Position numbers and translations under genes: made by a program. Source: Modestobacter sp. VKM Ac-2985 (GTDB lineage: Bacteria; Actinomycetota; Actinomycetes; Mycobacteriales; Geodermatophilaceae). From it: 64,000 nucleotides of DNA. The stretch is taken from assembly GCF_026967925.1 (NCBI RefSeq), contig NZ_JAPVBI010000003.1, positions 1,070,826-1,134,825 on the forward strand. Reading direction: 5' to 3'. Below, piece by piece: positions 121-16,641 of the stretch; within the stretch, counting starts at the first letter, position 1; each line of letters starts with the position of its first letter. The notes beneath the pieces were generated by a model. It worked only from the letters and a program-made list of their open reading frames with translations. It was not told the DNA's origin and did not search any database.

Positions 121-3100
121 TCAGGCAGTGGCTGGGGCGACCGGTGCAAGCCACTCATCGTCCAGACGGAGAAACTGCCCCGGCGCGGCCAATGGCAGAG
201 GGCGTCCATCGAGCATCGGCCCTGTGTTGCCGGCCAGCTGAGGGACGAGCACCCACACCGCTTGTCGTCGGGGGGCGGACAGATCCGTCCACCGGCTCAG
301 CATCGACAGCTTGTCGTACCGAGATAGCGGCGACGCCTCAACCAGCAGGAGGGGGCTCTCACCGTCCATTGCCTCGATAGCCCGGTTGATGGCCGGAAGC
401 GCGAACTCGACGAGTCGGGACAGTCCGAGCGCCTCGCGCGTGCCGGCTGGGCGGGCGTCCGCGGCCACGACGTCTGTCCAGCCGATCTTGCCCTCGGACT
501 GGGTCCGCAGCGCGTCGATGAACACCCCGGTCACGTCGAGAACCCGAGCGCCGTGTCGCTCGACAAGCGTCGTGACGGCGCGATCGTGGCGGGGTGCGGA
601 GACGCCCAACGCCAGGAATGACCGGGAGCGCGCGCTCTCAGTCAGCCTGCGGTCCAGTTGACCTCCGGACACGGACAACGGAGCGCCGGGCAGCGCCACC
701 CACGTGTCCATCCGAGATTCAAGGTCGGTCGAGCTGGTGATGGCCAAAGCCCGGAACGCCCGGTGCTGCTCGTCGTAGCGCAGGTTGAGTCCGGCGTCAC
801 TGACCAGTGTGTCCAACCGCGGCCGCTCGGGTAGCGCGGGCAGCTGCGGGAAGCGGGCCCGGACTCGGTCTCGGATCTCCTGCGCGGCGATGGGTTGAGC
901 GCCGGTGACACCAGCGAGTGCCATCCGGAGCGCGGCGACGGCGTCCAGGTCACGGTCGTGGAGCTCGCCCCGGCCGGAGACCGCTGCGGTCTGCGACAAC
1001 GAGGCCGCCAGCTGCACCAACCGGGCATCGGGCAGCGGCGCACGCGCACCAATTCCGGCACCAGCGACCTCACGTAGAGCTGCGCCGGCCCGGCCGGCAG
1101 CGATCACGGGATCTGACGCCGTCCGCGCCTGGCGGATCAGCTCATCCGCACGTCGGGCCAGCGCATCTGCGAGGTCGAGCAGATCGGGCTGGGTCGCCAG
1201 CGCCAGCAGGCGCCCGTTCCGTCGACGCTTGGCCAACGGCTCCCCGCCGGCCTCCGCCCGATCGAGGGCGTCGGTGCGGTCCACCGCCACCCGGAGCAGT
1301 CCCGCGGCCAGCCGCGCCGGGTCCACCTGGTCGGACTCGGCCGGTCCCATGGACGCCAGCACGGCACCGGCCAGCTCGTCGACTGTTGCCACACCGCCGA
1401 AAGCGGCCAGCGCCTCAGTAGCGACGTCCGCTACTTCGGTGAGCAGCTGGCGGCTACCTGCGTCTGCAGCCCAGCCGTCCTGCATCTCGCCGACCAGCTG
1501 AGCCGCTCGTGGTCGGGTGACCTTGAGCGCCTCGCCGAGCTCCCCTTGGGTGACGAAGGCGTCGACGCCGTCCTCGACACCCAGCAGGAGTGCCGCCGCG
1601 TGACGCCTGCTGTCGGCCCGAGCGTTGCCGACGGTCGCGACGAGAAGGTCAGCTGCAGTGGCCGGGGTTGAAAGTGAGCCCCCGGATGGGCGTTCGGGTC
1701 GCTGCGCGCCCCGGCCGATCACGGCGACACCGAACCGGTCGCGCCAACGCTTGGCGCGCTGCTTCACCTCCCGTCGCGTGGGTTCGGAGACGCCGGAGAG
1801 CCGGTTGAGGCGGACCGGGTCGATGGCCACGAGGTCACCGACGGTGCTGACTGCGAGCGGCTCGATGGCTGACAGGGCGCGCGCCGACAGACCTGACTGC
1901 GACAGCGACGTTGACGCATCCGCACTCTCGGCTTGCGCGTCCGCGTCGTCCGGCACTGTGCTGTCGACAGGTGCGAACAACGCCTTCCACTCGGCGAGCA
2001 TCTCCGCCGCTGTGTGCTGGCGATCGGCGACCCGACGCGACAAGCCGCGGTGGAAGAACGGCACCAAGGCGGCGGCGAGCGAGGAGTCGAAGAGAGACGG
2101 GTCGACCGTCGCATCGTCGGGGATCAACGCCGGATCACTCAATCCGTCCCCGTAGACCGGTGGGCGGCCGGTGGCCATCTCGAAAAGGACGACGGCCGCC
2201 GAGTACCGCTCCGCGGCGGAGTCGAAGCGGCCGCGTCCCGGGCTGTCGAGGAACGGATCTAAGTACGGCGGCGTCCCAGCCGTGACTGCCGTGGCTCCGG
2301 CCTGAGTGAGCGAGAAGTCGAAGAGCGTCAGGTGCTTGACCCGGTCCGTGCGGCTTCGTCCTTCGCGGACACCCAAGTTGGCCGGCTTGATGTCGCGGTG
2401 GTCGACACCCGCCTTGTCGAGGACGACGAGCGCCTCCAGGAGGTCGGTGCCCCACCGCTCGAGGAGGTCGAGCGACAGCCGCTGTCGGGCGCTCAGGACA
2501 TCCGCCAGGGTCTGGTCGCCCGCGGGTTCGAGGACGAGGGCCCGTCGGGTGCCGACCTGGATCGGCCCGTCGACGAGCCGGACCACCCGGGGATGGTTCA
2601 GCGATGCCAGCACGGAGGCCTCGGCGTCGAGCCGAGCCGTGGCGGCGTCGTTGATGGCGACCTTGAGTACGCGTCGGGCATCGGGGCCCGTTCCGATGGT
2701 GAGGTCACTGACCAGCAGGCCCACCGCTGTGGATCCGGCGCCCAGCCGGCGCTCCAGCTGCCAGCGGTCGTCGATCACGGCACCGGCGATGGCGTCCAGC
2801 GGGTCGATGACTTCGTCGAGGGCCGTGCCGGCCCGCTCGACGGCAGCAAGGCGTTCGAGGAAAGCCCCGACATCGGCCAACCGGTCGCTCACCGAGGGCC
2901 GGGTGGCCTCCAGCACGAGAGCCCGCATGGCCGAGGAGATCTGCGGCAGGTCCGCCGCGAGATCGAGACCGTGGTCGCGCTGGATACGTTCGCGGAGACC
3001 GGCACGGTCTGCGGCCGGCGGACGGCCGGCGAGCACGAAGTAGGCAACAGCACCAAGGCTGAAGACGTCTAGGCGAACCCGATCAGCCCCGGCGTTCCAC

Positions 3101-4371
3101 ACGCCCTCTGGCGCTTGGAACGCCTCCGCCTGTCGCCGATCGAGGTCGACCGCGGCGGGCTGCAGGACGACGCCAAGGCGGTCGTTGACCAGCTCTGCTG
3201 CGACCAGTGCGGTCACACCAGTGGTCGTGACGCCGGTCAGATTCTCCCCCGTCGCTGACCCGGCGCTCTGCCAATCACCAACGAGCACTCGCAGTCCGCC
3301 ACTGGGTTGTTCCTTGACCCAGATGGCGGAGGGAGTCAGCCCGCGGTGCACCACTCGGTGCCCGTGCGCGTAGCCGACAGCCTCTGCGACCTGGCGGAGG
3401 AGCGAGAGCTGGTCGGTCAGCGGAACGCCCTGCGGCCGGTCCGCCTGCCACAGGTCAAGGCGCTGGAAGCTCTCGTCGTAGGGGTAGACCAGCCCGACGC
3501 CGAGGTCGTCATCCACCAGGTCGCGGGGGCGAAGGACGGCGTCGTGGGTCAGGCGAGACATGACCCGGTACTCATGTTCGACGACCTTGCGAACGCGGGT
3601 GACCTCTTGCGACTCGGCACCCGGCGGCACGACCCGGACGCGGATGCGCGCCCGGTCGCTGCCGATGTGCCGATGGGTGGCTGACCAGTCCTGCCAGCCC
3701 TCCCCTTCACCGAGCGGCTCGTCGTCGATGACCCACGAGCCGACCTCGCGCTGTCGACGTCGAACCAGGCCGATGCGACCCATCAGCATCGCGAGGATCT
3801 CCTCGCGGTTGGCGCCAACGGCGTCCGTGGGGGTGGGCGGCTCCAGCAGCCGGCTCGCGATGCCCGGCAGGCCAGAGCTGCGCTCGTTCCCGTCGAGGCC
3901 GAACAGATCCAGCTGGGACGCCGAAGGAAGCATGGAACGCAGCCCCGGGTGATGCAGGAACACCGACTCCTGGACGAACGGGACGATCCGACGGACGTCG
4001 TCGATCGGTGTACCGGTCTCCTCCGCCCAGCGGACCAACTCGTCGCGCAGCTTGCTGGCGAGACGCTGAGCCTTCCGGCGAGCGAGCTTGAGCGGAGAGT
4101 CCTCAGCCCGGTGTCCGTCGCGGCGCCAGCGGAGATCGTCGCCGCGCAGGGTGCCGCTGTAGTACTTCAGCTCCACCAGGTGCAGGCGTCGCTGGCCCAG
4201 GACGATGAGGTCGACTTCGTGCCACTTGCCCTGGCCATCGCGGAACTCAACGTTCGACCACGCCCGGTAGGGCGAGGTCTGCGGGAGCAGCTCGCGGACC
4301 AGTCGCAGACCCTCTGCCTCATGCGGGAAGGGCGACGGCGTCACCTCAACCCATCGGGGCGTCTGCGGCAC
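121..4371 (-). CDS. pglW: PglW-like NERD/Ser-Thr kinase (BREX type 2 component)
   Basis: The protein of about 1416 residues starts with a NERD nuclease-related domain (roughly residues 20-140, with VELKYY as the E-x-K element) and continues into two kinase-like domains. The first has HRGLTPSAIW where HRD-x-K is expected, so it looks like a pseudokinase. The second has an intact HRDIKPAN loop but DFS instead of DFG. A helix-hairpin-helix-like stretch (AIEPLAVSTVGDLVAIDPVR) and a long helical C-terminus follow. NERD plus two kinase domains at this length matches PglW of Pgl/BREX type 2 phage defence. I chose GTG 4371 because AAGGAG lies 5 bases upstream; an in-frame ATG at 4404 has no ribosome site. 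It is the last gene of a minus-strand run, so any pglX/Y/Z would lie beyond position 1. Confidence 0.85.
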   Translation of the reverse strand: MPQTPRWVEVTPSPFPHEAEGLRLVRELLPQTSPYRAWSNVEFRDGQGKWHEVDLIVLGQRRLHLVELKYYSGTLRGDDLRWRRDGHRAEDSPLKLARRKAQRLASKLRDELVRWAEETGTPIDDVRRIVPFVQESVFLHHPGLRSMLPSASQLDLFGLDGNERSSGLPGIASRLLEPPTPTDAVGANREEILAMLMGRIGLVRRRQREVGSWVIDDEPLGEGEGWQDWSATHRHIGSDRARIRVRVVPPGAESQEVTRVRKVVEHEYRVMSRLTHDAVLRPRDLVDDDLGVGLVYPYDESFQRLDLWQADRPQGVPLTDQLSLLRQVAEAVGYAHGHRVVHRGLTPSAIWVKEQPSGGLRVLVGDWQSAGSATGENLTGVTTTGVTALVAAELVNDRLGVVLQPAAVDLDRRQAEAFQAPEGVWNAGADRVRLDVFSLGAVAYFVLAGRPPAADRAGLRERIQRDHGLDLAADLPQISSAMRALVLEATRPSVSDRLADVGAFLERLAAVERAGTALDEVIDPLDAIAGAVIDDRWQLERRLGAGSTAVGLLVSDLTIGTGPDARRVLKVAINDAATARLDAEASVLASLNHPRVVRLVDGPIQVGTRRALVLEPAGDQTLADVLSARQRLSLDLLERWGTDLLEALVVLDKAGVDHRDIKPANLGVREGRSRTDRVKHLTLFDFSLTQAGATAVTAGTPPYLDPFLDSPGRGRFDSAAERYSAAVVLFEMATGRPPVYGDGLSDPALIPDDATVDPSLFDSSLAAALVPFFHRGLSRRVADRQHTAAEMLAEWKALFAPVDSTVPDDADAQAESADASTSLSQSGLSARALSAIEPLAVSTVGDLVAIDPVRLNRLSGVSEPTRREVKQRAKRWRDRFGVAVIGRGAQRPERPSGGSLSTPATAADLLVATVGNARADSRRHAAALLLGVEDGVDAFVTQGELGEALKVTRPRAAQLVGEMQDGWAADAGSRQLLTEVADVATEALAAFGGVATVDELAGAVLASMGPAESDQVDPARLAAGLLRVAVDRTDALDRAEAGGEPLAKRRRNGRLLALATQPDLLDLADALARRADELIRQARTASDPVIAAGRAGAALREVAGAGIGARAPLPDARLVQLAASLSQTAAVSGRGELHDRDLDAVAALRMALAGVTGAQPIAAQEIRDRVRARFPQLPALPERPRLDTLVSDAGLNLRYDEQHRAFRALAITSSTDLESRMDTWVALPGAPLSVSGGQLDRRLTESARSRSFLALGVSAPRHDRAVTTLVERHGARVLDVTGVFIDALRTQSEGKIGWTDVVAADARPAGTREALGLSRLVEFALPAINRAIEAMDGESPLLLVEASPLSRYDKLSMLSRWTDLSAPRRQAVWVLVPQLAGNTGPMLDGRPLPLAAPGQFLRLDDEWLAPVAPATA

Positions 4372-4442
4372 TCGTTCTCCTTCGCGCTTGCGGCTGATCG
4401 GCATCAGTCTGACAGCCGTGTGCGATCCACCCGACTGTCTGG

Positions 4443-6110
4443 CTACAGGTCCCACTCGTCCGAGAGCGTGGAGAGGAGCTCCTGCTGGCGCTTCTCGAGC
4501 AGCTCCGGCGTCCACGCTGCCTCGGTGACGACGCCCACCGTCAGCGCGAATGGCGCGACACCGGTCTTGCCGGTGAAGTAGCGCGCCTTCTTGGTGTCGA
4601 AGTCGTAGTTCTGCGCCTCGGAGTTCTTGGCACGGTTGAGCAGGACCAGGTTCCCCAAGCGGTGCGTCCACTGCAGGCGCTCGTCGTCCGTGAAGTCCTG
4701 GACCCACTTCGAGGTGGTGGAGGGGTTTTGCGGCAGGACGTGCTCGACGGTGATGATCGCGTGGTCGTACGTGACCCCGGGATTGTTGGCCAGGGCTTCG
4801 TCCAGCCGCAGGAGGACGTACTTGCGCACCTTGGTGACGAGGTAGATGTCGCCGTTCAAGCGGTCGACGGTCTCAGCGCGCTCCTCGGGTGTCAGCTCGA
4901 AGCCCGGCGCGTCAAGGCCGACCCTTTCCAGATCAGCCAACAAGTCCGCGTACCGCTGTGCTCGTGGGGTGGCGTAGACGCGCCGCAAGAGCATGCTGGC
5001 TGCTAGCCGCTCGAGCTTTTGGAAGAACTCGTTTAGCCAAGTGGCGTCGTCCGAGTGGTGGCGCAACGCCCAGAGCGCCGGCGGCCGCCAGTCGTTGTTG
5101 TCCAGCTGGGACAAGCGCGTCAGCCAGCGGTTGACCTTTTCCGCACTCGCGCTGGCTGAGTACGACTGGTCGCGCAGTTGCTCGTACGCGTCGGCGTACG
5201 GCAGCAGCACCTGATCGATGAACGCTGCTGATTTTCCCTTGAACTGAGCCAGCACCTGCTCGGGAAACTCTTTGAGCAGCTCCCTGCGCGCGCGTTCCTT
5301 GGAGAAGATCATGCGCAGGTGCAGGAACAGGTCGGCGAAGTCGTCGCGTCCGAGCGCCTCTTCCGCGTCCTCCCACTTGGTGGCGTACTCGCTGGATGCG
5401 CCGTCGGGCAGCTCGCCGATGATGAGCGACTTGAATATGTCAGCCGGCGACAGATCCAGTCCTCGGGCGTTCATCACACTGAAGATGCGGTGTGCGCTGT
5501 CGAGGTCGGGCGTGCTCACCACGACCAGGAAGGTCCGCTCGCTGAGCATCGCAACCAGCTCGAGACGTCGATCCTCGTTCCAGGTCTTCAGCTTCTCCCG
5601 AAGGGCGATGGCGTTCTCTCGGACTGACCGCTGCGCGTCGGTCTTGAGGCTGTCCTTGTTCACCGCGACCAAGGTGGTGGTCGCGCCAGTGACCTGGATG
5701 TGGTCCTGGAAGAAGCCAGCGTCACGTGCACGAAGCGCCAGACGAGGCTTGGGCGCCAGCTTCCGGATCTTGCTGCCCGGCTCGACGATCAGCGTCTCCA
5801 GGTTCTGACGCAGCTCGTCGTCCTCGGTCAGGTCGCGGAGGACCGCCAGGAGGATGGTGAGCGTCGTCAGCCGCTGCTGGCCATCGATGACCTCAGCCTC
5901 CGACACGCCCTTCCGCTTGACCAGCACGATAGAGCCTAGAAAGTACGGCTCTTCGTCACCGCGGTCTAGCGCATCGACCAGGTCCTCCAGCAGCTGGGTG
6001 GCCTGCTCCCGCTCCCACGCATACGGGCGCTGGTAATCGGGGATGCGAAAGTCGTAGTCACTGCAGAAGATCTTGTGCAGTGGGACCTCGTGGGCTTCCA
6101 GCTGTTGCAT
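4443..6110 (-). CDS. DUF262/DUF1524 (GmrSD-like) nuclease
   Basis: This protein of 555 residues carries the DUF262 signature: IPDYQRPYAW near residues 23-32 and the NTP-binding DGQQR at 76-80. Its C-terminal DUF1524 HNH-like domain has EHVLPQ at about 456 and HRLGNLVLLN at about 484. Single-chain DUF262-DUF1524 proteins of this kind (GmrSD, BrxU) are NTP-dependent type IV restriction enzymes that cut modified phage DNA; that activity is inferred from family. It sits 71 bases upstream of pglW on the same strand, which suggests co-transcription within a defence island. ATG 6110 starts the conserved part; an in-frame extension up to 6326 looks non-coding. Confidence 0.85.
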   Translation of the reverse strand: MQQLEAHEVPLHKIFCSDYDFRIPDYQRPYAWEREQATQLLEDLVDALDRGDEEPYFLGSIVLVKRKGVSEAEVIDGQQRLTTLTILLAVLRDLTEDDELRQNLETLIVEPGSKIRKLAPKPRLALRARDAGFFQDHIQVTGATTTLVAVNKDSLKTDAQRSVRENAIALREKLKTWNEDRRLELVAMLSERTFLVVVSTPDLDSAHRIFSVMNARGLDLSPADIFKSLIIGELPDGASSEYATKWEDAEEALGRDDFADLFLHLRMIFSKERARRELLKEFPEQVLAQFKGKSAAFIDQVLLPYADAYEQLRDQSYSASASAEKVNRWLTRLSQLDNNDWRPPALWALRHHSDDATWLNEFFQKLERLAASMLLRRVYATPRAQRYADLLADLERVGLDAPGFELTPEERAETVDRLNGDIYLVTKVRKYVLLRLDEALANNPGVTYDHAIITVEHVLPQNPSTTSKWVQDFTDDERLQWTHRLGNLVLLNRAKNSEAQNYDFDTKKARYFTGKTGVAPFALTVGVVTEAAWTPELLEKRQQELLSTLSDEWDL

Positions 6111-6234: not shown

Positions 6235-8442
6235 CTACGACGGTCGGTCGGCAACCAATCTCGGGGCCGTGGAGTCGAAGCCATCTGGCGTCTGCCAGAT
6301 GACTGCGACATGCTGACTGGCCGCAAGATCCTGCAAGTCAGGTCGGGGCTTCTCGGGCAGGAGAACAGCTCGATGCGTGGCGGCTACGAATCGGCTGTAA
6401 TCGGCGAGCTGCCCCAGTGCCATCCGCACAGCTTCCCGTGACGTGGTTCCCTTCGCCTCCACCAGCGCCTTGACTGTGTCGTCGTAGAGGTCCGTGTACA
6501 TCGGCTTGTGCTCCCCAGGCGGAAGGACTCTCTTACGGGACACAGCTCGTCCCCTCGCCCGTAGGTGGGCTTCGAATGCGATCACCAGCTTCGCCTCTCG
6601 ACGTTCGGCCTCGATCGGTTCGGCTTTCGGGTTGATCCAGGCTCTCTCCGTGTGCTGCTGTTCGATGGGGACGTCAGCAACGATCGGACCAACGGTGACT
6701 GACGCAAGTGGCGAGCGCTCCGCTGGTGCACGTGCCGTGAGCGGGCGAAGCCGGAAGACGATCACCTTGCGAACAGGCCCGTCGCCCGTCTCGGGGGCGT
6801 CTGTCTCGTACGAGGGCTCGCGCTCGTCGAGTTCGAACTGGCCCATGTACCGGATGACGTCCTTCGAGCCCTCGAAGACCTGAAGCGCCCGACCGGCCGC
6901 CCGATGATCCACGATGGCCCGGTTTCCCCGGATCATCTGCTGATCCCCTCGCTGCCCCTCGCCGGTGTAGTGGAACAGGCCATCCGCCTGCCAGCCGTCG
7001 AAGTAGCCGTGCTGCTCCCCGGTTTTCGGGTCCGTGAAGATGAGGATGTTCGGCGACTGCGACGACGGGCTGATGCCACCCTGTCCGCTGCCTCCATACC
7101 GCTCATGCAACGCAGTGCGCTTGATCTGTTCGCCCGGCTTGAGGTGCAGGCCGCCGCTGTCCTGCGCCTTGCCGCCGGCGCCCCTGCTGTCAGCATCGTG
7201 TAGCGAGACGACCGGCGGGGCGCCAGCGACGACGACGTCCTCCCGGCTGGCGAGAACGGCGCCGACGAACGAGCTGCGGTGCCCGAGGGTCGGGACGTCG
7301 ATGGTGACCTGACCGTCCCGACCAAGCAGGTCGAGGGCTGTCTGCACCTCGGCGATGGGGACCAGCTGTCCTTGGGGAGACTTCGACGTTGCGACCAGGA
7401 CGTTCGGGGGTTCGACGGCGAGGACCTCATTGACAGCGCCATTCGTCGTCGTCTCGAGCCTGCGTCCGATGAGCACGGTCAGGAGGTCGACAGCTTCCTG
7501 GTTCTCGTCCCCACCGGCGTAGACCTCCGGCGCTGGAGATTCCGCTGGGAACAGCGAGCCCAGGGCGGTCTGCAGGGCGGGATGCTCCGCGACCGGCGCG
7601 GTGAGCAGCTCGATGGCGCGGCTGCGGAACGCCCGGTCGTCTCGCACGCGGTCGTGAGCCGCCCGGGCCAAGCCCGCGACCGGGTCTTCGGTGCGGACGA
7701 AGTCTCTGCCTCCTCGAGACACGGGACCGTCTGGTGCGCCGAACAGCTGCCACCACGGCGACTTTCGGAGCGCGAACCACGGCAGCTCCGGGTCCGGCTG
7801 GCTGTCGCCGACCGCGAACGGCGTCAGCAGACTGCGAAGCTCATCCCGGACATCGGAGAAGGGCTGCATCCGCTCTCGGCCGTGTATTGCCTTGTTGATC
7901 GCCCACAGGAGGACCAGCTGCTGATAGGGCGCCGGCTTGCCCAGCTGCCGGTCTACCTTCAGCTCGGTCAGCGCCGCGAGCAGCGGCTCGTCCGTGTCGA
8001 CTGGGGAAGGCACCGGCGTCCTGTCCCAGTCGCCGTGGCGCTCGAATTCGTCGGCCAGGAGGACCGTCAGACGCTCGGCTCGCTGGAGGTCGATGCGCGG
8101 GAACTGAGGCAAGCGGACGGTGTCGATGCCGACGGTGCGCTTGAGCTCTGGGCCCGCCATGGGGACCGGCGCGGCAGGCTCGTCGAGGACCTCGACCGGG
8201 ATGAGCGCCTTGTAATGCTGTGGATCCGGCCAAGGGACTTCTTCGATCCCGGCGGGGCGACGTGCATCTTCAGTGACCCGGCAGCGCGCCAGCCACCCCT
8301 GCTTCGAACCCCAGATGAAGAGCTCATCTCCCGCGCGCACGCCCAGCGCGGTGGGGGTGTTCGAGCCGAAGAGCGATTCGCGCTTGCAGATCTGCCAGTT
8401 GTCACGCTGTTCGAAGGAGATCGAGCCGACCCAATACGTCAC
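6235..8442 (-). CDS. Candidate modification-dependent nuclease (EVE-SBD-SRA-PD-(D/E)XK)
   Basis: The 735-residue protein reads as four modules. Residues 1-130 resemble an EVE/PUA modified-base reader (WQICKRE, then VRAGDELFIWGSKQG and WPDPQHY). Residues about 160-240 resemble the sulfur-binding domain of ScoMcrA (YQQLVLLWAINKAIHGRERM, then WFALRKSPWWQLFG). Residues about 435-590 resemble the ScoMcrA-type SRA domain (HYTGEGQRGDQQM, GRALQVFEG, IRYMGQFEL). The last 130 residues form a PD-(D/E)XK-like fold with D651, E662 and K664 (YTDLYDD then LVEAKG) rather than the HNH of ScoMcrA. I infer a type IV enzyme that recognises modified (methylated or phosphorothioated) DNA. It lies upstream of the DUF262 gene in the same run. 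Confidence 0.75.
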   Translation of the reverse strand: MTYWVGSISFEQRDNWQICKRESLFGSNTPTALGVRAGDELFIWGSKQGWLARCRVTEDARRPAGIEEVPWPDPQHYKALIPVEVLDEPAAPVPMAGPELKRTVGIDTVRLPQFPRIDLQRAERLTVLLADEFERHGDWDRTPVPSPVDTDEPLLAALTELKVDRQLGKPAPYQQLVLLWAINKAIHGRERMQPFSDVRDELRSLLTPFAVGDSQPDPELPWFALRKSPWWQLFGAPDGPVSRGGRDFVRTEDPVAGLARAAHDRVRDDRAFRSRAIELLTAPVAEHPALQTALGSLFPAESPAPEVYAGGDENQEAVDLLTVLIGRRLETTTNGAVNEVLAVEPPNVLVATSKSPQGQLVPIAEVQTALDLLGRDGQVTIDVPTLGHRSSFVGAVLASREDVVVAGAPPVVSLHDADSRGAGGKAQDSGGLHLKPGEQIKRTALHERYGGSGQGGISPSSQSPNILIFTDPKTGEQHGYFDGWQADGLFHYTGEGQRGDQQMIRGNRAIVDHRAAGRALQVFEGSKDVIRYMGQFELDEREPSYETDAPETGDGPVRKVIVFRLRPLTARAPAERSPLASVTVGPIVADVPIEQQHTERAWINPKAEPIEAERREAKLVIAFEAHLRARGRAVSRKRVLPPGEHKPMYTDLYDDTVKALVEAKGTTSREAVRMALGQLADYSRFVAATHRAVLLPEKPRPDLQDLAASQHVAVIWQTPDGFDSTAPRLVADRPS

Positions 8443-8593: not shown

Positions 8594-8959
8594 TCAGTCG
8601 CGGACAGGAGCGACGCCCAGGTTGGTGGTAGCCGGAAAGCGCTGGCTGTTCGCTTCCAACTTGGACCGAGCCGCAGCAGCGAGATCGATACCGGACACGT
8701 CGGCCAGTCGCACCAGGTAGAGCAGGACGTCCGCCAGCTCCTCCCCCAACCGTTCACGCAGGTGACTGCCTTCCGCTGTCCCGCCTGCTTCCTCAGCGGG
8801 CAGCCACTGCACGAGCTCGGCGACCTCCCCCACCTCGCCGACCAGCGCGAGCGTGAGGGACTTGAGGTCGTGGAAGCGACCCCAGTCGCGTACCTCGGTG
8901 AACTCACGCATCTGGGCGGTCAAGTCAGCCAGGTCGCTCACCGCTGGAGTATCGGTCAC
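8594..8959 (-). CDS. MazG-like nucleotide pyrophosphohydrolase
   Basis: This small all-helical protein (121 residues) matches the MazG/RS21-C6 dCTP pyrophosphatase group. It has a DWGRFHDLKSLTLALVGEVG segment followed by two acidic helices, EVGEVAEL and EELADVLLYLVRL, that bind Mg and the NTP phosphates. Members hydrolyse (d)NTPs to NMP and pyrophosphate, cleaning the nucleotide pool or, in phage-defence contexts, depleting it. Start is uncertain: GTG 8959 gives MTDTPAV, but GTG 8938 (VSDLADLTAQ) matches the usual family N-terminus better. It is the first gene of the minus-strand run leading to pglW and is divergent from the DUF2075 gene. Confidence 0.85.
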   Translation of the reverse strand: MTDTPAVSDLADLTAQMREFTEVRDWGRFHDLKSLTLALVGEVGEVAELVQWLPAEEAGGTAEGSHLRERLGEELADVLLYLVRLADVSGIDLAAAARSKLEANSQRFPATTNLGVAPVRD

Positions 8960-9026
8960 CGGGTGTGACCGGCGTCCCGTCTAGGGTGATGACTACGCGG
9001 TTCGACTGGCTTCCGAACTCTTGGAC
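8939..9026. promoter_or_regulatory. Divergent promoter region with palindrome
   Basis: The short gap between the MazG-like gene and the DUF2075 gene must carry promoters in both directions. It contains the inverted repeat GGTCAC-N5-GTGACC at 8954-8970, a plausible operator. No regulator gene is adjacent, so the binding protein is unknown. Confidence 0.4.
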
Positions 9027-10937
9027 ATGCCCCCACCCGCACGTTCATTCGTGCTGCCCGGGGACAGGTCCTTGCCACTTCTTCGTACGTCCGGCCATGG
9101 CCTCAAGACGCTCGCTGACGCCGGCTCGCTGGCGTCCACGCTGGCGACTCAAATGTCGCATCGCATGAACCGCTCGCCCTCCGCGGCCGAGATGCGCTCG
9201 TGGGACGCGAGCCTCACCGCTCTCGCCGCCGACCTCGAGCAAGCCGGTCTGGGCGGCGTCGAGGTGCTGCTCGAGTACCAGCTCCCCCTGTCCAGCAAGC
9301 GGATCGACGTCATCCTGGCCGGCGAGCACCCGCAGCGCGGCGGGCCGTCCTACATCGTCCTCGAACTGAAGCAGTGGACGCAGGCGACCCTGTTCGAGGA
9401 CGAGCCGGAGCTCGTCGTCCAGCCGACCTACGGCAACCGTCCCGTGCTGCACCCGGTCGCCCAAGTGCGCTACTACGGCGAGTACCTGCTCGACTTCCTC
9501 GGTGTCCTGCACGGCACGAACGACGTCCTCGCCGGAGCCGCCTACCTGCACAACGCGACCGATGACCGCGTCAGTGCGCTCCGCGGCTACCCGCAGGACG
9601 AGCTGGGCCGCCTGTTCACCGGACGCGAACGCGGCGACTTCCACGACTTCCTCCGGTACCGCCTCTCCCCCGCCAACGCCTCGATTCACGCCGACCGGTT
9701 GCTGCGGTCCTCTGTCGCCCCGAGCAAGCAGCTGCTCGCCGTCGCGGCGGAGGAAATCCGTACGCGGGAGCAGTTCGTGCTCCTCGACGAGCAGCGGGTC
9801 GCCTTCGATCTGGTGCTCCATGAGGTGGAGAAGGCCCGCGGAGGCGATCACAAGTCGGTCGTCATCGTCTCGGGCGGGCCGGGCAGCGGGAAGAGCGTCA
9901 TCGCGCTTTCTCTGCTCGGTGAACTCAGTCGGCGCGGCGTCCGCGTCGCGCACGCCACCGGCTCTCGGTCGTTCACGCAGACGCTGCGCAAGGTGGCCGG
10001 TCGCCGAGCGCCGCGCACGGCCGCTCTGTTCCGGTACTTCAACCAGTTTATGGACGTCGCCAAGAACAGTCTCGACGTCCTCATCGCCGACGAGGCGCAC
10101 CGACTGCGGGAGACCTCGGCCAACCGTTGGACGAAGGCCGAGCTGCGCAGCGACAAGCGGCAGATCGACGAGCTGATCGACGCAGCCTTCGTGTCGGTGT
10201 TCCTGCTCGACCAGAACCAGGTCGTGCGCCCCGGAGAGATGGGCACGGTCCAGGACATCGAGAAGCACGCCCGCGAACGCGGCATCGACGTCCACGAGAT
10301 CGACCTGTCGACCCAGTACCGCAGCGGTGGCAGCGCCGAGTACGTCGAATGGGTCGAGCGGCTGCTCGGTCTGGCTCCGGGGGGTCCGGAGAAGTGGGGC
10401 GGGGACGAACGCTTCGAGGTCCGGACGGCGCCGTCGCCGTCCGCCATGGAGGCAGCACTCGCGGAGAAGCTGGCCCAGCACCAGAACGCCCGGATGGCCG
10501 CCGGCTACTGCTGGCCCTGGAGCGACCCGAGGTCCGACGGGTCGCTCGTCTCGGACGTGACGATCGGCGACTGGTCCCGCCCGTGGAACCTCAAGCGCGA
10601 GCGCTCAGTGGGTGACGCCCCGCCGGCCGCCCTGTGGGCCAGTGACGACCGCGGCTTTGGCCAGGTCGGCTGCGTCTACACCGCACAGGGCTTCGAGTAC
10701 GAGTGGAACGGCGTCCTGCTCGGCCCCGACCTGGTGTGGCGCACAGATCGCTGGGTCGCCGTGCGCAGTGCCAACCGCGATCCGGACTTCCGCAACAGGC
10801 AGCGGGTCAGTGATGCGGACTTCGACGTGCTCGTGCGCAACGTCTACAAAGTGCTGCTGACGCGCGGTCTGCGTGGCGTCTACCTGCACTCGACCGATCC
10901 GGAGACCCAGCAGCTACTGGACGACCTCGTCAACTGA
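9027..10937 (+). CDS. DUF2075 nuclease-helicase protein
   Basis: The 636-residue protein combines an N-terminal PD-(D/E)XK-like domain (IDVILAGEH with D94, then IVLELKQW with E113 and K115) with a DUF2075/superfamily 1-like ATPase. Walker A is GGPGSGKS near residue 283, a DEAH box (IADEAHRLR) lies near 353, and STQYRSGGS and VYTAQGFEYEWNGV are the later helicase motifs. Family members are found in phage-defence neighbourhoods and are predicted to process DNA or RNA; no precise reaction is established. It is the only plus-strand gene inside the defence island. A decayed fragment of a paralogue survives near 21254. ATG 9027 lacks a clear ribosome site; TTG 9021 is an alternative. Confidence 0.8.
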   Translation: MPPPARSFVLPGDRSLPLLRTSGHGLKTLADAGSLASTLATQMSHRMNRSPSAAEMRSWDASLTALAADLEQAGLGGVEVLLEYQLPLSSKRIDVILAGEHPQRGGPSYIVLELKQWTQATLFEDEPELVVQPTYGNRPVLHPVAQVRYYGEYLLDFLGVLHGTNDVLAGAAYLHNATDDRVSALRGYPQDELGRLFTGRERGDFHDFLRYRLSPANASIHADRLLRSSVAPSKQLLAVAAEEIRTREQFVLLDEQRVAFDLVLHEVEKARGGDHKSVVIVSGGPGSGKSVIALSLLGELSRRGVRVAHATGSRSFTQTLRKVAGRRAPRTAALFRYFNQFMDVAKNSLDVLIADEAHRLRETSANRWTKAELRSDKRQIDELIDAAFVSVFLLDQNQVVRPGEMGTVQDIEKHARERGIDVHEIDLSTQYRSGGSAEYVEWVERLLGLAPGGPEKWGGDERFEVRTAPSPSAMEAALAEKLAQHQNARMAAGYCWPWSDPRSDGSLVSDVTIGDWSRPWNLKRERSVGDAPPAALWASDDRGFGQVGCVYTAQGFEYEWNGVLLGPDLVWRTDRWVAVRSANRDPDFRNRQRVSDADFDVLVRNVYKVLLTRGLRGVYLHSTDPETQQLLDDLVN

Positions 10938-10984
10938 ACTGCTTCGCGTTGACAGCGCTCGGTGGAGCTGCGGCCAGCCGGCAC

Positions 10985-12764: not shown

Positions 12765-13871
12765 TCAGTCATCGGTGGCCACCTCGACCGGCACCAGGAC
12801 TCGGTCGGGCATCCCGGCTGCTCGCTCGAGTGGGAGGGACGGCCATCCGCTCCACCCGCGGGCACGGACCTGCTCGACCTTGCCGACGAGTTCGTCGATC
12901 CCAGCCACCGCAACGGCAAGACTGTCGATGCGGACGGGGTGCCGGGATGCGTACTCCGGTAGCAGGAAGTAGAGCTGTCCTCTGGTGGACCCGTCTCCGA
13001 CGTTGATGTTCCAGACCGGGGTGTCCTTGCCGTCCACCGAGTACCAGCCGGTCACCCCTGCAGTTCCACCCGACCCCCAGGAGAAGCGCCCACCCCGCGC
13101 CTTCACGTGCGCGATGAGCCGCTCGACCAGCGCTCGCACGATTGGCTCACGCTGCTCCAGTGCGGCGATCAACGTGGCCTCGGTCCACGGAGCCCGTCTC
13201 GAACGTCGTTGCTTGGAGTCCACCGCCGCAGCTGTCCGACCGACGACCCGCGGGACGTAGGCGACCTGATCACCCTCGCCCGTGTACTGCGGGAGCTCCA
13301 CTCCGAGCACCTCGACGTCCCGCATCTGCTCATTGAGAAACTCGATGATCCGTACGAGGCCGGGTGCCAGCCGGTCGGCCAGGAAGATCAAACGAATGCG
13401 GCCAGCACGCAAGTTGTCCTCGACGGTCGACCAGAAGGCCTCCGCATCGCCGACGCCGAGCTGTTGTTCGAGGTACTGGGCAGGATCCAACGTGCCGGCC
13501 GCCTGAGCGACGGCATCGCGGAGGTCGTTCTGCCACGTGGTGATCCCGTTCGCGGCGTAGTCCAGCATCTGTGCGACGACCTCACGACGGGCTCGTGTGT
13601 CGCTGGCGCGCTTGACCTCCACCAGTACTGGTGTCCCCGCCTGGTCGATGAACAGGTGGTCCAGGGAGAGGCCGACGCTGTCCGAGGCGGTGACGGGCAT
13701 CTCCCGCCGTACGAGCAGGAGTCTCGGGCGCTCATCTGACGTGGCAACTCCCGCGATCAGCTCGGGGAATTGGGCCAGTACACGCTGGAGCACGTCCTCG
13801 TTGTCGTAGTCAGTCTGCCGCAAGGCGATGAGCTGCCCTTCGATGGCGAGGAAGATGGCCTGATCAGTCAC
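12765..13871 (-). CDS. PD-(D/E)XK nuclease-like protein
   Basis: This protein of 368 residues has an N-terminal restriction-endonuclease-like core: SLDHLFID (D71), then PVLVEVKRAS (E85, K87), then ARREVVAQMLDYAANG with the Q typical of this fold. The C-terminal half contains a second conserved-looking block (WGSGGTAGVTGWYSVDGKD, then WNINVGDGSTRGQLYFLL) that I cannot name. It is likely a DNA nuclease of the defence island; substrate unknown. GTG 13871 is used because the next gene upstream ends inside the start (8-base overlap), showing translational coupling. Reading further upstream in frame gives low-complexity sequence antisense to the neighbour's coding frame. Confidence 0.7.
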   Translation of the reverse strand: MTDQAIFLAIEGQLIALRQTDYDNEDVLQRVLAQFPELIAGVATSDERPRLLLVRREMPVTASDSVGLSLDHLFIDQAGTPVLVEVKRASDTRARREVVAQMLDYAANGITTWQNDLRDAVAQAAGTLDPAQYLEQQLGVGDAEAFWSTVEDNLRAGRIRLIFLADRLAPGLVRIIEFLNEQMRDVEVLGVELPQYTGEGDQVAYVPRVVGRTAAAVDSKQRRSRRAPWTEATLIAALEQREPIVRALVERLIAHVKARGGRFSWGSGGTAGVTGWYSVDGKDTPVWNINVGDGSTRGQLYFLLPEYASRHPVRIDSLAVAVAGIDELVGKVEQVRARGWSGWPSLPLERAAGMPDRVLVPVEVATDD

Positions 13872-14610
13872 CCGAGGTCTCCGCAGCGATCGTGGTCGGC
13901 AGTGCTGCCCTGCGGCGATGGGCCCAGAGAGCGTGCTCGAGGCGTGTGGAGCTGTCGCCGCGTGCGGCGGCGGCAGCCAGGACCACGTCTCGCGCTTCAT
14001 ACGGGGAGACGGGCCGTGCGACGGCGTCGGCCACCGCGGCGATAACCCACCGATCCGCTTTGACACCAGGCCGGCCGAGGAGCATGCCGAAGTACTCCCA
14101 GGTCACCCAACCGAGTCCAGTGACGCCCGTGTAGGCCCGCCGCTGGTCGTCGTCTTCCAGGTTGAGCTGACAAGAGGACGTGACGCCGCAGCGCACCAGT
14201 CGCTGGGCCGCCTCCACGATGGCCGCCGCCTTGGGCACGCCACTCGTGACCTGGCGACCCACGGCCTTCTCCACCTCGCGCCAGTCGAACGAGGCGAGAG
14301 CCCGGAGGTCGTCGAGAACCTCAGTCGGGGCGCGCAGCTCCCGGTAGGCGGCGACTGCCCGGTGGACCCCCGTCGCCCGCGACCCGTCACGGGCAGCCCG
14401 CCCATAGCGTGCGCGGATCGACAAGACAGCGTCGACCAGCGCCACCTCAATCTCACCGGGCCGGCCGCCAGGCCATTCGGTCCACCCGTCGCCGATCTGG
14501 TCGTCGACGTAGCGCAGCAGCGCGCACACATCCGCTTCCGTAACCGGAGCCGTGTCGTCCGCCTGAAGACTGCACGAGTGCATCGACGTGCTCGCTGGTG
14601 TGGTCGTCAC
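13864..14610 (-). CDS. HhH-like protein of unknown function, coupled to the nuclease
   Basis: The 248-residue product is largely helical. Its best clue is VTGLGWVTWEYFGMLLGRPG near residue 180, which resembles the helix-hairpin-helix of HhH-GPD base-excision glycosylases (VPGVGPKTA-type), preceded by helices and followed by the AVADAVARPVSPYEARDVVL segment. I see no clear catalytic Lys/Asp pair, so DNA binding is more secure than glycosylase activity. GTG 14610 has GGGAG 6 bases upstream. It overlaps the PD-(D/E)XK gene by 8 bases, so the two products are probably made in similar amounts and may work together. Confidence 0.55.
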   Translation of the reverse strand: MTTTPASTSMHSCSLQADDTAPVTEADVCALLRYVDDQIGDGWTEWPGGRPGEIEVALVDAVLSIRARYGRAARDGSRATGVHRAVAAYRELRAPTEVLDDLRALASFDWREVEKAVGRQVTSGVPKAAAIVEAAQRLVRCGVTSSCQLNLEDDDQRRAYTGVTGLGWVTWEYFGMLLGRPGVKADRWVIAAVADAVARPVSPYEARDVVLAAAAARGDSSTRLEHALWAHRRRAALPTTIAAETSGD

Positions 14611-15822: not shown

Positions 15823-16641
15823 GTGAGCTGTCTCAGGTATCAACGGCGTCACGGCGCACTCCGCCTGCGGGTGATCCATCGCCGTCATCAACGCGCCTCC
15901 TGGCTCGACAGAGATCTTCGGACCCGGCGAACGGAACTGCTTCGTAACCGCTGGAAGGACTTGACCCTTGTCCTGGTGGCCTTGGTTGTGTCCGCAGCCG
16001 GCGCAAGCTTGGTGGTACGCCACTCCCCGTTGCTGACGGGCCTCGTGATCGGCGTCTACGTCGGCGCGACCGCGGTTGCGGCGATCGTCCTGCTTTCGGT
16101 CGTCGATGGGACTTTCCACCCGCGTCTCGGCCGGCTCGTTGAGCGCAGCGTCGGCACAGACCTCCGGCGGATCCCCGGCATCCACGGCGTGGTCAGCGAC
16201 GTCTCGTTCGAGCACGGGAACGTCGACCACGTCGTCTTGACGCCGCGCGGATGTCTGGCCGTCGAGGTCAAGAGCTCGTTTTCCCGGCGTCGGGACCTGG
16301 CCAAGGTCGCCGACCTCGCCGGCAAAGTCGCGCAGACGCGAGACGGCGCAGTGCGGGTGCAGCGACTGCTGCGCAGTAGGGGCGTCGACGTCCCGGTACG
16401 GCCAGTCCTGCTGTTCACCGGCCCGGGAGCACCGTTCATGCCTCCCGTCGTCCACTACGACGACGTGACCATCACCGGCTCCGCCGACTCGACGACTTGG
16501 GTGGAGGGCGCCGTTCGGGCCAACGACCAGCTCGACTTGGACACCGCCAGGCGTGCAGCTGATGTGCTGCTGGCCTACCGAGAACAGCGCACCGACTACG
16601 AGCAGGTTCGCGCCCAGCTACAGGCCGAAAAGCTACACTGA
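15823..16641 (+). CDS. Membrane-anchored NERD domain protein
   Basis: The product of up to 272 residues has a basic N-terminus, two adjacent transmembrane segments (DLTLVLVALVVSAAGASLVV and LLTGLVIGVYVGATAVAAIV, about residues 46-90) and a cytoplasmic NERD domain. The NERD core is seen in VDHVVLTPRGCLAVEVKSSF, with D, E-x-K and a following Arg-rich helix. NERD domains are nuclease-related and often linked to DNA or RNA processing or defence; cutting activity here is inferred. The start is uncertain: GTG 15823 is the longest and GTG 15871 is possible. It stands alone between the lipoprotein and the nitrile hydratase operon. Confidence 0.7.
   Translation: MSCLRYQRRHGALRLRVIHRRHQRASWLDRDLRTRRTELLRNRWKDLTLVLVALVVSAAGASLVVRHSPLLTGLVIGVYVGATAVAAIVLLSVVDGTFHPRLGRLVERSVGTDLRRIPGIHGVVSDVSFEHGNVDHVVLTPRGCLAVEVKSSFSRRRDLAKVADLAGKVAQTRDGAVRVQRLLRSRGVDVPVRPVLLFTGPGAPFMPPVVHYDDVTITGSADSTTWVEGAVRANDQLDLDTARRAADVLLAYREQRTDYEQVRAQLQAEKLH

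Follow-up and report, generated by a model that had tools for sequence, protein, structure and literature searches.

The window analysed here, namely the whole stretch of 64,000 nt, comes from Modestobacter sp. VKM Ac-2985 of the Geodermatophilaceae (assembly GCF_026967925.1, contig NZ_JAPVBI010000003.1, positions 1,070,826-1,134,825). It holds a gene for a predicted multi-domain nuclease, flanked on one side by a MazG-like gene and a divergent helicase gene, and on the other side by genes of a GmrSD-like type IV enzyme and of a BREX type 2 system (Table 1).

Table 1. Features of the nuclease gene and its neighbours (positions in the window; residues of the 735-aa protein)
Feature	Residues	Position	Strand	Basis or remark
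Whole nuclease gene	1-735	6235..8442	-	ORF analysis; GTG start
EVE-like domain	1-125	8068..8442	-	Profile match to PH1033; common to EVE-HNH_2 proteins (L017, L018, L020, L025, L036)
Sulfur-binding-like domain (SBD)	148-290	7573..8001	-	Matches to the SBDs of SprMcrA and ScoMcrA
Unnamed middle module, possible coupling part	313-420	7183..7506	-	Sits before the HNH ends of other proteins
Hinge	414-433	7144..7203	-	Geodermatophilus homology stops, stand-alone SRA-nuclease homology starts
SRA domain	434-590	6673..7143	-	ScoMcrA match, SRA profile, PADLOC mREase_IV
Predicted PD-(D/E)XK nuclease domain	605-735	6238..6630	-	Conserved E616, D651, E662, K664, Q678, Y682
MazG-like gene		8594..8959	-	151 bp upstream, same strand; Pfam MazG 2.3e-8
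Schlafen-group-3 helicase		9021..10937	+	Divergent; Pfam 3.1e-84
GmrSD-like type IV enzyme		4443..6110	-	124 bp downstream, start by eye; GmrSD_N 1.7e-38, GmrSD_C 8.3e-28
ORF with PglW kinase, BREX type 2		121..4707	-	PADLOC PglW E=0

The gene and the adjoining BREX cluster

The reading frame proposed by the initial annotation, made earlier from the sequence alone, is confirmed in its extent, strand and GTG start, and GTG occurs at the same start point in all three homologues known from Geodermatophilus. The frame is free of internal stops and has a coding-type composition, and the gene is the single match of its protein within the host genome (4.7 Mb in 9 contigs, completeness 100%). A chance ORF is ruled out by the 735 stop-free codons, by the homologues and by a conserved nuclease motif.

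Downstream, the GmrSD-like gene heads the BREX-2 cluster, in the same orientation as the nuclease gene (window 121-6110). After PglW the cluster continues beyond the left edge of the window with BrxC/PglY, PglZ, BrxD and BrxHI (L021, L022), and a methyltransferase-like ORF in it was assigned to PglX by eye. Of 112 genomes of the family, 2 have a full-length PglW (best E=0), the host and G198, the remaining 110 giving weaker, partial matches; hence adjacency to BREX is no rule for this nuclease. The three genomes that carry the same N-terminal half (G413, G213 and G085) are among those with partial best matches (3.5e-28, 2.4e-27 and 7.6e-30, respectively). On the other side of the gene, two ORFs of the window (12765-14066 and 15823-16641) show an ExK-like stretch, VEVK, by eye, and the second of them resembles a NERD protein.

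Reader and middle modules of the N-terminal half

A Pfam scan of the whole window protein returned no hit even at E<=10. With a profile of nine sequences covering residues 1-145, PH1033 (EVE/UPF0310) was matched at E=0.001 over the first 46 positions only; the single query sequence reached this match at E=2.5, and the Pfam EVE model gave no hit at E<=1 in the nine profile members. For the next domain, a search of solved-structure sequences aligned the SBD of SprMcrA with residues 148-280 at E=6.8e-11, and the ScoMcrA SBD aligns to residues 165-269. In addition, the NCBIfam model PT-DNA_restrict was found at residues 154-233 with E=1e-6, which is far below the curated cut-off of that model.

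The initial annotation had counted four modules; a fifth one at residues ~313-420 had been overlooked. This middle module of about 105 residues matches a domain that directly precedes the HNH part in actinobacterial proteins such as L043, L044, L047 and L050, in the first of which HNH_2 was detected by a Pfam scan. Twelve relatives of the domain are known besides the window protein. It belongs to no Pfam family, and its best match among PDB sequences (E 0.72) was judged to be chance. Because it is placed between readers and nuclease, its position suggests that it may act as a coupling part.

SRA and predicted nuclease modules of the C-terminal half

In the solved-structure search with the single sequence, the SRA of ScoMcrA aligns to residues 437-523, and a profile of 15 sequences of the SRA part matched ScoMcrA at 3.7e-9; the plant SRA of SUVH5 scored 0.095 against the same profile, which is not significant. 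PADLOC assigned its type IV enzyme model mREase_IV to the same residues at 8.9e-11. Pfam SAD_SRA hit 3 of the 22 members of the nuclease alignment, 14 of which hold an SRA. Thus the EVE-like, sulfur-binding-like and SRA-like readers claimed by the initial annotation are each supported at the level of sequence homology, and its interpretation as a whole is supported in part.

The C-terminus contains the motif D-x10-E-x-K followed by QxxxY, the order in which RecB-type PD-(D/E)XK nucleases carry their motifs. E616, E662 and K664 are invariant in all 22 aligned homologue rows and D651 in 21 of them, L010 being the one that differs; Q678 and Y682 are invariant in the 21 rows left when L010, the row without the aspartate, is taken out. 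The loss of D651, E662 and K664 among homologues, which the initial annotation had named as one observation that would speak against it, was looked for and did not appear. From the motif and its conservation, a PD-(D/E)XK nuclease fold is predicted for residues 605-735. Among named families, Tox-REase-9, which has the restriction-endonuclease fold, gave weak hits in 7 of the 22 members (best E=0.012), and the best match of the module to PDB sequences (E 0.82) was judged to be chance. Local hhalign comparison gave probabilities of 1.6% for Mrr_cat and 1.3% for PDDEXK_1, in a test that is powerless, as these two control families do not recover one another (0.2-0.3%) and a higher value, 3.7%, was obtained for the SRA profile. 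The best of these alignments, at probabilities below 2%, place EAK on the xxK of Mrr_cat and PDDEXK_1, and QLADY on the QLxxY of PDDEXK_1.

A shared N-terminal half with different ends

Relatives were sought in 112 genomes of the family, in 397 genomes of the order and by a pattern scan of genome contigs, which yielded three relatives. Two candidates were scored for each genome in the order scan, nine in the family scan and three in the helicase scan, so that matches may be missed, and the contig scan used two N-terminal patterns, which fusions with another N-terminus would escape.

Residues 1 to ~414-429 are common to three Geodermatophilus proteins at 62-67% identity. The protein of Geodermatophilus chilensis (L002/L034, 573 aa) ends in HNH_2 (7.9e-13), and that of G. 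sp. LHW52908 (L003/L033, 576 aa) aligns with it throughout, including the HNH_2 end. The third one, from G. ruber (L023/L032, 741 aa, present in two collections), ends in a canonical SRA (3.6e-47) followed by HNH_2 (6.9e-11). An HNH end is ruled out for the window protein, which has no Pfam hit where its relatives give these HNH_2 scores, and the suggestion of the initial annotation that a D/ExK motif stands in place of the HNH of ScoMcrA is borne out by the conserved motif and the lack of an HNH hit. One N-terminal half therefore occurs with three kinds of C-terminal end, i.e. HNH_2, SRA plus HNH_2, and SRA plus the D/ExK domain.

The boundary is also seen in DNA. Identity to the three relatives is 73-74% from the helicase gene (window 10909-10946) down to window 7202-7248, which corresponds to residue ~399-414, and beyond this point no DNA match to any of the three was found in a comparison of 16 kb of the window with 10-13 kb of each relative. 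The part that follows, the SRA-nuclease module, exists in other genomes as a separate protein of ~300-370 aa (L004-L015), which matches residues 434-725 over nearly its whole own length at ~34-52% identity. It is also present on viral contigs, at eight loci (those named are L158-L164), seven of which match both SRA and nuclease, with 51-52% identity for L158 and L159. A tree built from 21 sequences places the module of the window protein with L158, L159, L004, L005 and L010 (97/96 support), and not with L024 of its own family.

In L158 (4986-5894) and L159 (4341-5894), the SRA-nuclease genes lie on the strand opposite to packaging-type genes (terminase and portal by eye), and the viral-contig version is possibly a prophage-carried defence gene. 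A search of the viral contigs for the N-terminal half gave 37 pattern matches and no relative. Among plasmids, 23 records match part of the window protein and none covers 80% of it. The whole order of five modules was found in no other protein of the 397 order genomes, the 112 family genomes, the contig pattern scan and the plasmids. Other arrangements of the parts were seen: in L019 (592-2025) they are permuted as SRA-SBD-nuclease, and in L053 (1044-2618) an SBD is joined to a NOV_C end with an EVE-like stretch between them by eye.

The simplest reading of these comparisons is that C-terminal effectors have been exchanged at the hinge, and any direction or date given to such an exchange would be conjectural. 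The differing cutting domains of the relatives suggest a mix-and-match antivirus nuclease.

A probable modification-dependent restriction enzyme formed by fusion

We consider it probable that the window protein is a modification-dependent (type IV) restriction endonuclease of fusion origin. EVE, SBD-like domain and middle module would form a backbone, HNH-ended in the relatives, which in place of that end has received a complete second modification-dependent enzyme composed of SRA and a D/ExK nuclease. The initial annotation had also suggested that three readers in one chain may make a broad or conditional sensor of phage DNA modification. In incoming phage DNA, EVE and SRA would flip modified bases out of the helix and hold them, the SBD-like domain would grip the backbone, whether phosphorothioated or not, and the C-terminal domain would cut nearby, probably once dimerised. 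Together with the neighbouring GmrSD, the nuclease may serve as a second line behind the adjacent BREX-2 when phages evade BREX by means of modified DNA. The reader homologies, the PADLOC mREase_IV assignment, the conserved motif, the relatives, the end of DNA identity near the hinge, the stand-alone modules and their tree, the neighbouring genes, the restriction of T4gt by ScoMcrA and the lack of a DndC match in the host and three relatives all argue for this fusion reading. The homologies, the N-terminal half shared by three ends and the gene neighbourhood are observed, whereas nuclease activity, reader ligands and a link with BREX are proposed. Counted against it are that the protein is nameless in Pfam, that the EVE match covers 46 positions, that pocket, phosphate and base contacts are altered, that no nuclease profile is matched significantly, that the host has a C5-methyltransferase homologue and that full-length PglW is rare in the family.

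In another reading, which we regard as somewhat unlikely, only SRA, perhaps with EVE, senses modification and the SBD-like domain is a general DNA-binding winged helix, which would make the protein in effect a cytosine-modification-dependent nuclease with passengers. In SprMcrA, the sulfur pocket is formed by Y31, Q32, Y78, P79 and A82 (PMC7470945, excerpts), whose counterparts in the window protein are Y173, Q174, L220, P221 and A224, i.e. four of five are identical and Y78 is replaced by L220. R29, R73 and R85 of SprMcrA correspond to A171, Q215 and K227, and its base-contacting HGD to RGG. Since Tyr78 is Leu220 here, phosphorothioate binding by the SBD-like domain is doubtful as judged from its residues. 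In ScoMcrA, the mutation Y164I lowered binding by 89% (PMC6224610, excerpts), which together with the changes at Tyr78, R29, R73 and HGD speaks for passengers. So does the existence of the SRA-nuclease module alone elsewhere, as a module that stands alone would not need the other readers. However, Y173, Q174, P221 and A224 are invariant in the SBDs of the window protein and of the two HNH_2-ended relatives, and are found in that of G. ruber too, and residues 1-428 have stayed 62-67% identical among the relatives, both of which speak against passengers.

No match to DndC was found in the host and the three relatives' genomes, with a model that rang only below its cut-off in control genomes, a result in line with phosphorothioation being foreign. 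All four genomes have PAPS-reductase-family genes, the host having two of them. The host has one C5-methyltransferase homologue (L146, on contig C1 of G000), the sites of which would have to be unrecognised, or the enzyme silent, and which fits badly with a nuclease triggered by 5mC in general. By eye, L146 has PEC where the motif of C5-methyltransferases is usually PCQ, and a close counterpart is present in G213.

The recurrent MazG-helicase neighbourhood

We think it unlikely that the nuclease works mainly within a unit of three genes, alongside MazG and the Schlafen-type helicase (e.g. on DNA that is damaged or being replicated, or by harming the infected cell), and less as a stand-alone restriction enzyme. 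An EVE-bearing match lies beside helicase and MazG in 9 of 10 genomes (nine from the scan of 397 order genomes and one from the family scan; G136 is the exception), and DNA similarity to the three relatives forms a single block that takes in helicase, MazG and the N-terminal half, both of which are in keeping with a unit. Yet among 60 helicase loci, a selection, mostly best-scoring, from the 96 of 397 genomes with a helicase match, MazG is within 1 kb upstream in 27 and an EVE protein within 3 kb in 5, not counting a weak EVE-like match (21%, 3e-5) that in L104 lies across the helicase from MazG's usual slot. What is more, the slot beside MazG and helicase is held elsewhere by a C5 methyltransferase (L085, 4412-5458) or an Mrr protein (L093, 4625-5509), and a defence hot spot fits equally well.

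In L100 the slot (4326-5513) encodes a protein with no Pfam hit. The recurrent MazG-helicase pair (L085-L144) has divergent genes in some lineages and genes on one strand in others, and the N-terminal part of the helicase has a nuclease-like D...ELK motif by eye. A literature search on MazG and defense gave none with DUF2075 among the matches listed.

An artefactual origin of the gene, either by a false join in the assembly or as a fusion decaying without function, as its five-module order found in no other protein searched might be taken to mean, is very improbable in view of the 735 stop-free codons of coding-type composition with the nuclease motif intact, the 100% complete assembly in 9 contigs, and G. 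ruber, which in two collections (L023, L032) has a different SRA and nuclease on the same backbone.

A bolder reading, to which we give little credence, goes beyond the fusion enzyme. EVE-SBD may serve as a transferable detector, recombining at a constant hinge with entire modification-dependent enzymes, of which some are prophage-borne; the present protein may then be a coincidence (AND-gated) nuclease that requires two or three different marks to occur together on one DNA and spares singly marked host DNA, and the nuclease may be the swappable third gene of an undescribed MazG-Schlafen-helicase defence unit.

Significance and comparison with known systems

If the fusion reading is true, three chemically different modification sensors are combined in one chain, and a single detector backbone next to the same pair of genes has given rise to three kinds of enzyme. 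The most useful part would be this set of different effectors on a single reader backbone: the EVE-SBD half with HNH, SRA-HNH or SRA-D/ExK would allow a direct comparison, as a natural experiment in the gating of nucleases by readers and in whether these work as OR or AND switches. It would also supply candidates for the enzymatic detection of DNA marks in combination, and an instance in which the joining of prophage-type enzymes to chromosomal defence genes can be tested.

Type IV enzymes that combine SBD, SRA or EVE readers with nucleases are already known, such as ScoMcrA, SprMcrA and VcaM4I. What is new is that three Geodermatophilus relatives share the first half of the protein and end in HNH_2 or in SRA plus HNH_2. 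EVE, SBD and SRA together in one protein were not found in the excerpts of PMC7641849, PMC6224610, PMC7470945, PMC7897488, PMC10853773, PMC12707154, PMC12839542, PMC13092281 and PMC7461809, supplements and most subscription journals being outside this scope.

One of the nearest architectures is that of ScoMcrA (SBD-SRA-HNH; PMC6224610 and PMC7461809, excerpts), in which an SRA of this type likewise follows the SBD and whose SRA is the closest solved one. The window protein adds EVE in front and the middle module between SBD and SRA, and has the D/ExK motif where ScoMcrA has HNH. ScoMcrA prefers 5hmC DNA, and it restricted the T4gt phage 1.6x10^3-fold in E. coli (PMC7461809, excerpts). SprMcrA (SBD-HNH; PMC7470945, excerpts) has the closest solved SBD, of which the Tyr-Gln pair is retained, but it is without EVE or SRA, ends in HNH and has Tyr78 in place of the Leu.

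As to the N-terminal reader, VcaM4I and other EVE-HNH enzymes (PMC7897488 and PMC7641849, excerpts) are alike in using an N-terminal EVE, and EVE-HNH_2 relatives, e.g. L017, occupy the same kind of locus as the window gene; the window protein differs from this type in having no HNH and two more readers. The EVE-PD(D/E)XK type IV enzymes of the EVE survey resemble it in joining EVE to a PD-(D/E)XK-type nuclease, and no SBD or SRA is mentioned for them in the excerpts of that survey (PMC7641849).

For the C-terminal half, the two-domain enzymes of the MspJI type (PMC12707154, excerpts) are likened by domain order, as a PD-(D/E)XK-type domain comes after the SRA in their C-terminal half, though their site is PD-QxK and that of the window protein ExK. 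The stand-alone SRA-nucleases (L004-L015 and the viral L158-L164) match residues 434-725, and unlike the window protein they are without EVE, SBD and middle module.

At the level of the locus, the comparison is with GmrSD/BrxU as a type IV companion of BREX (PMC12839542, excerpts), according to which a GmrSD enzyme accompanies BREX in a system of type 1. In the present locus a GmrSD gene adjoins the nuclease gene, whose own product is not a GmrSD enzyme, and the BREX system is of type 2.
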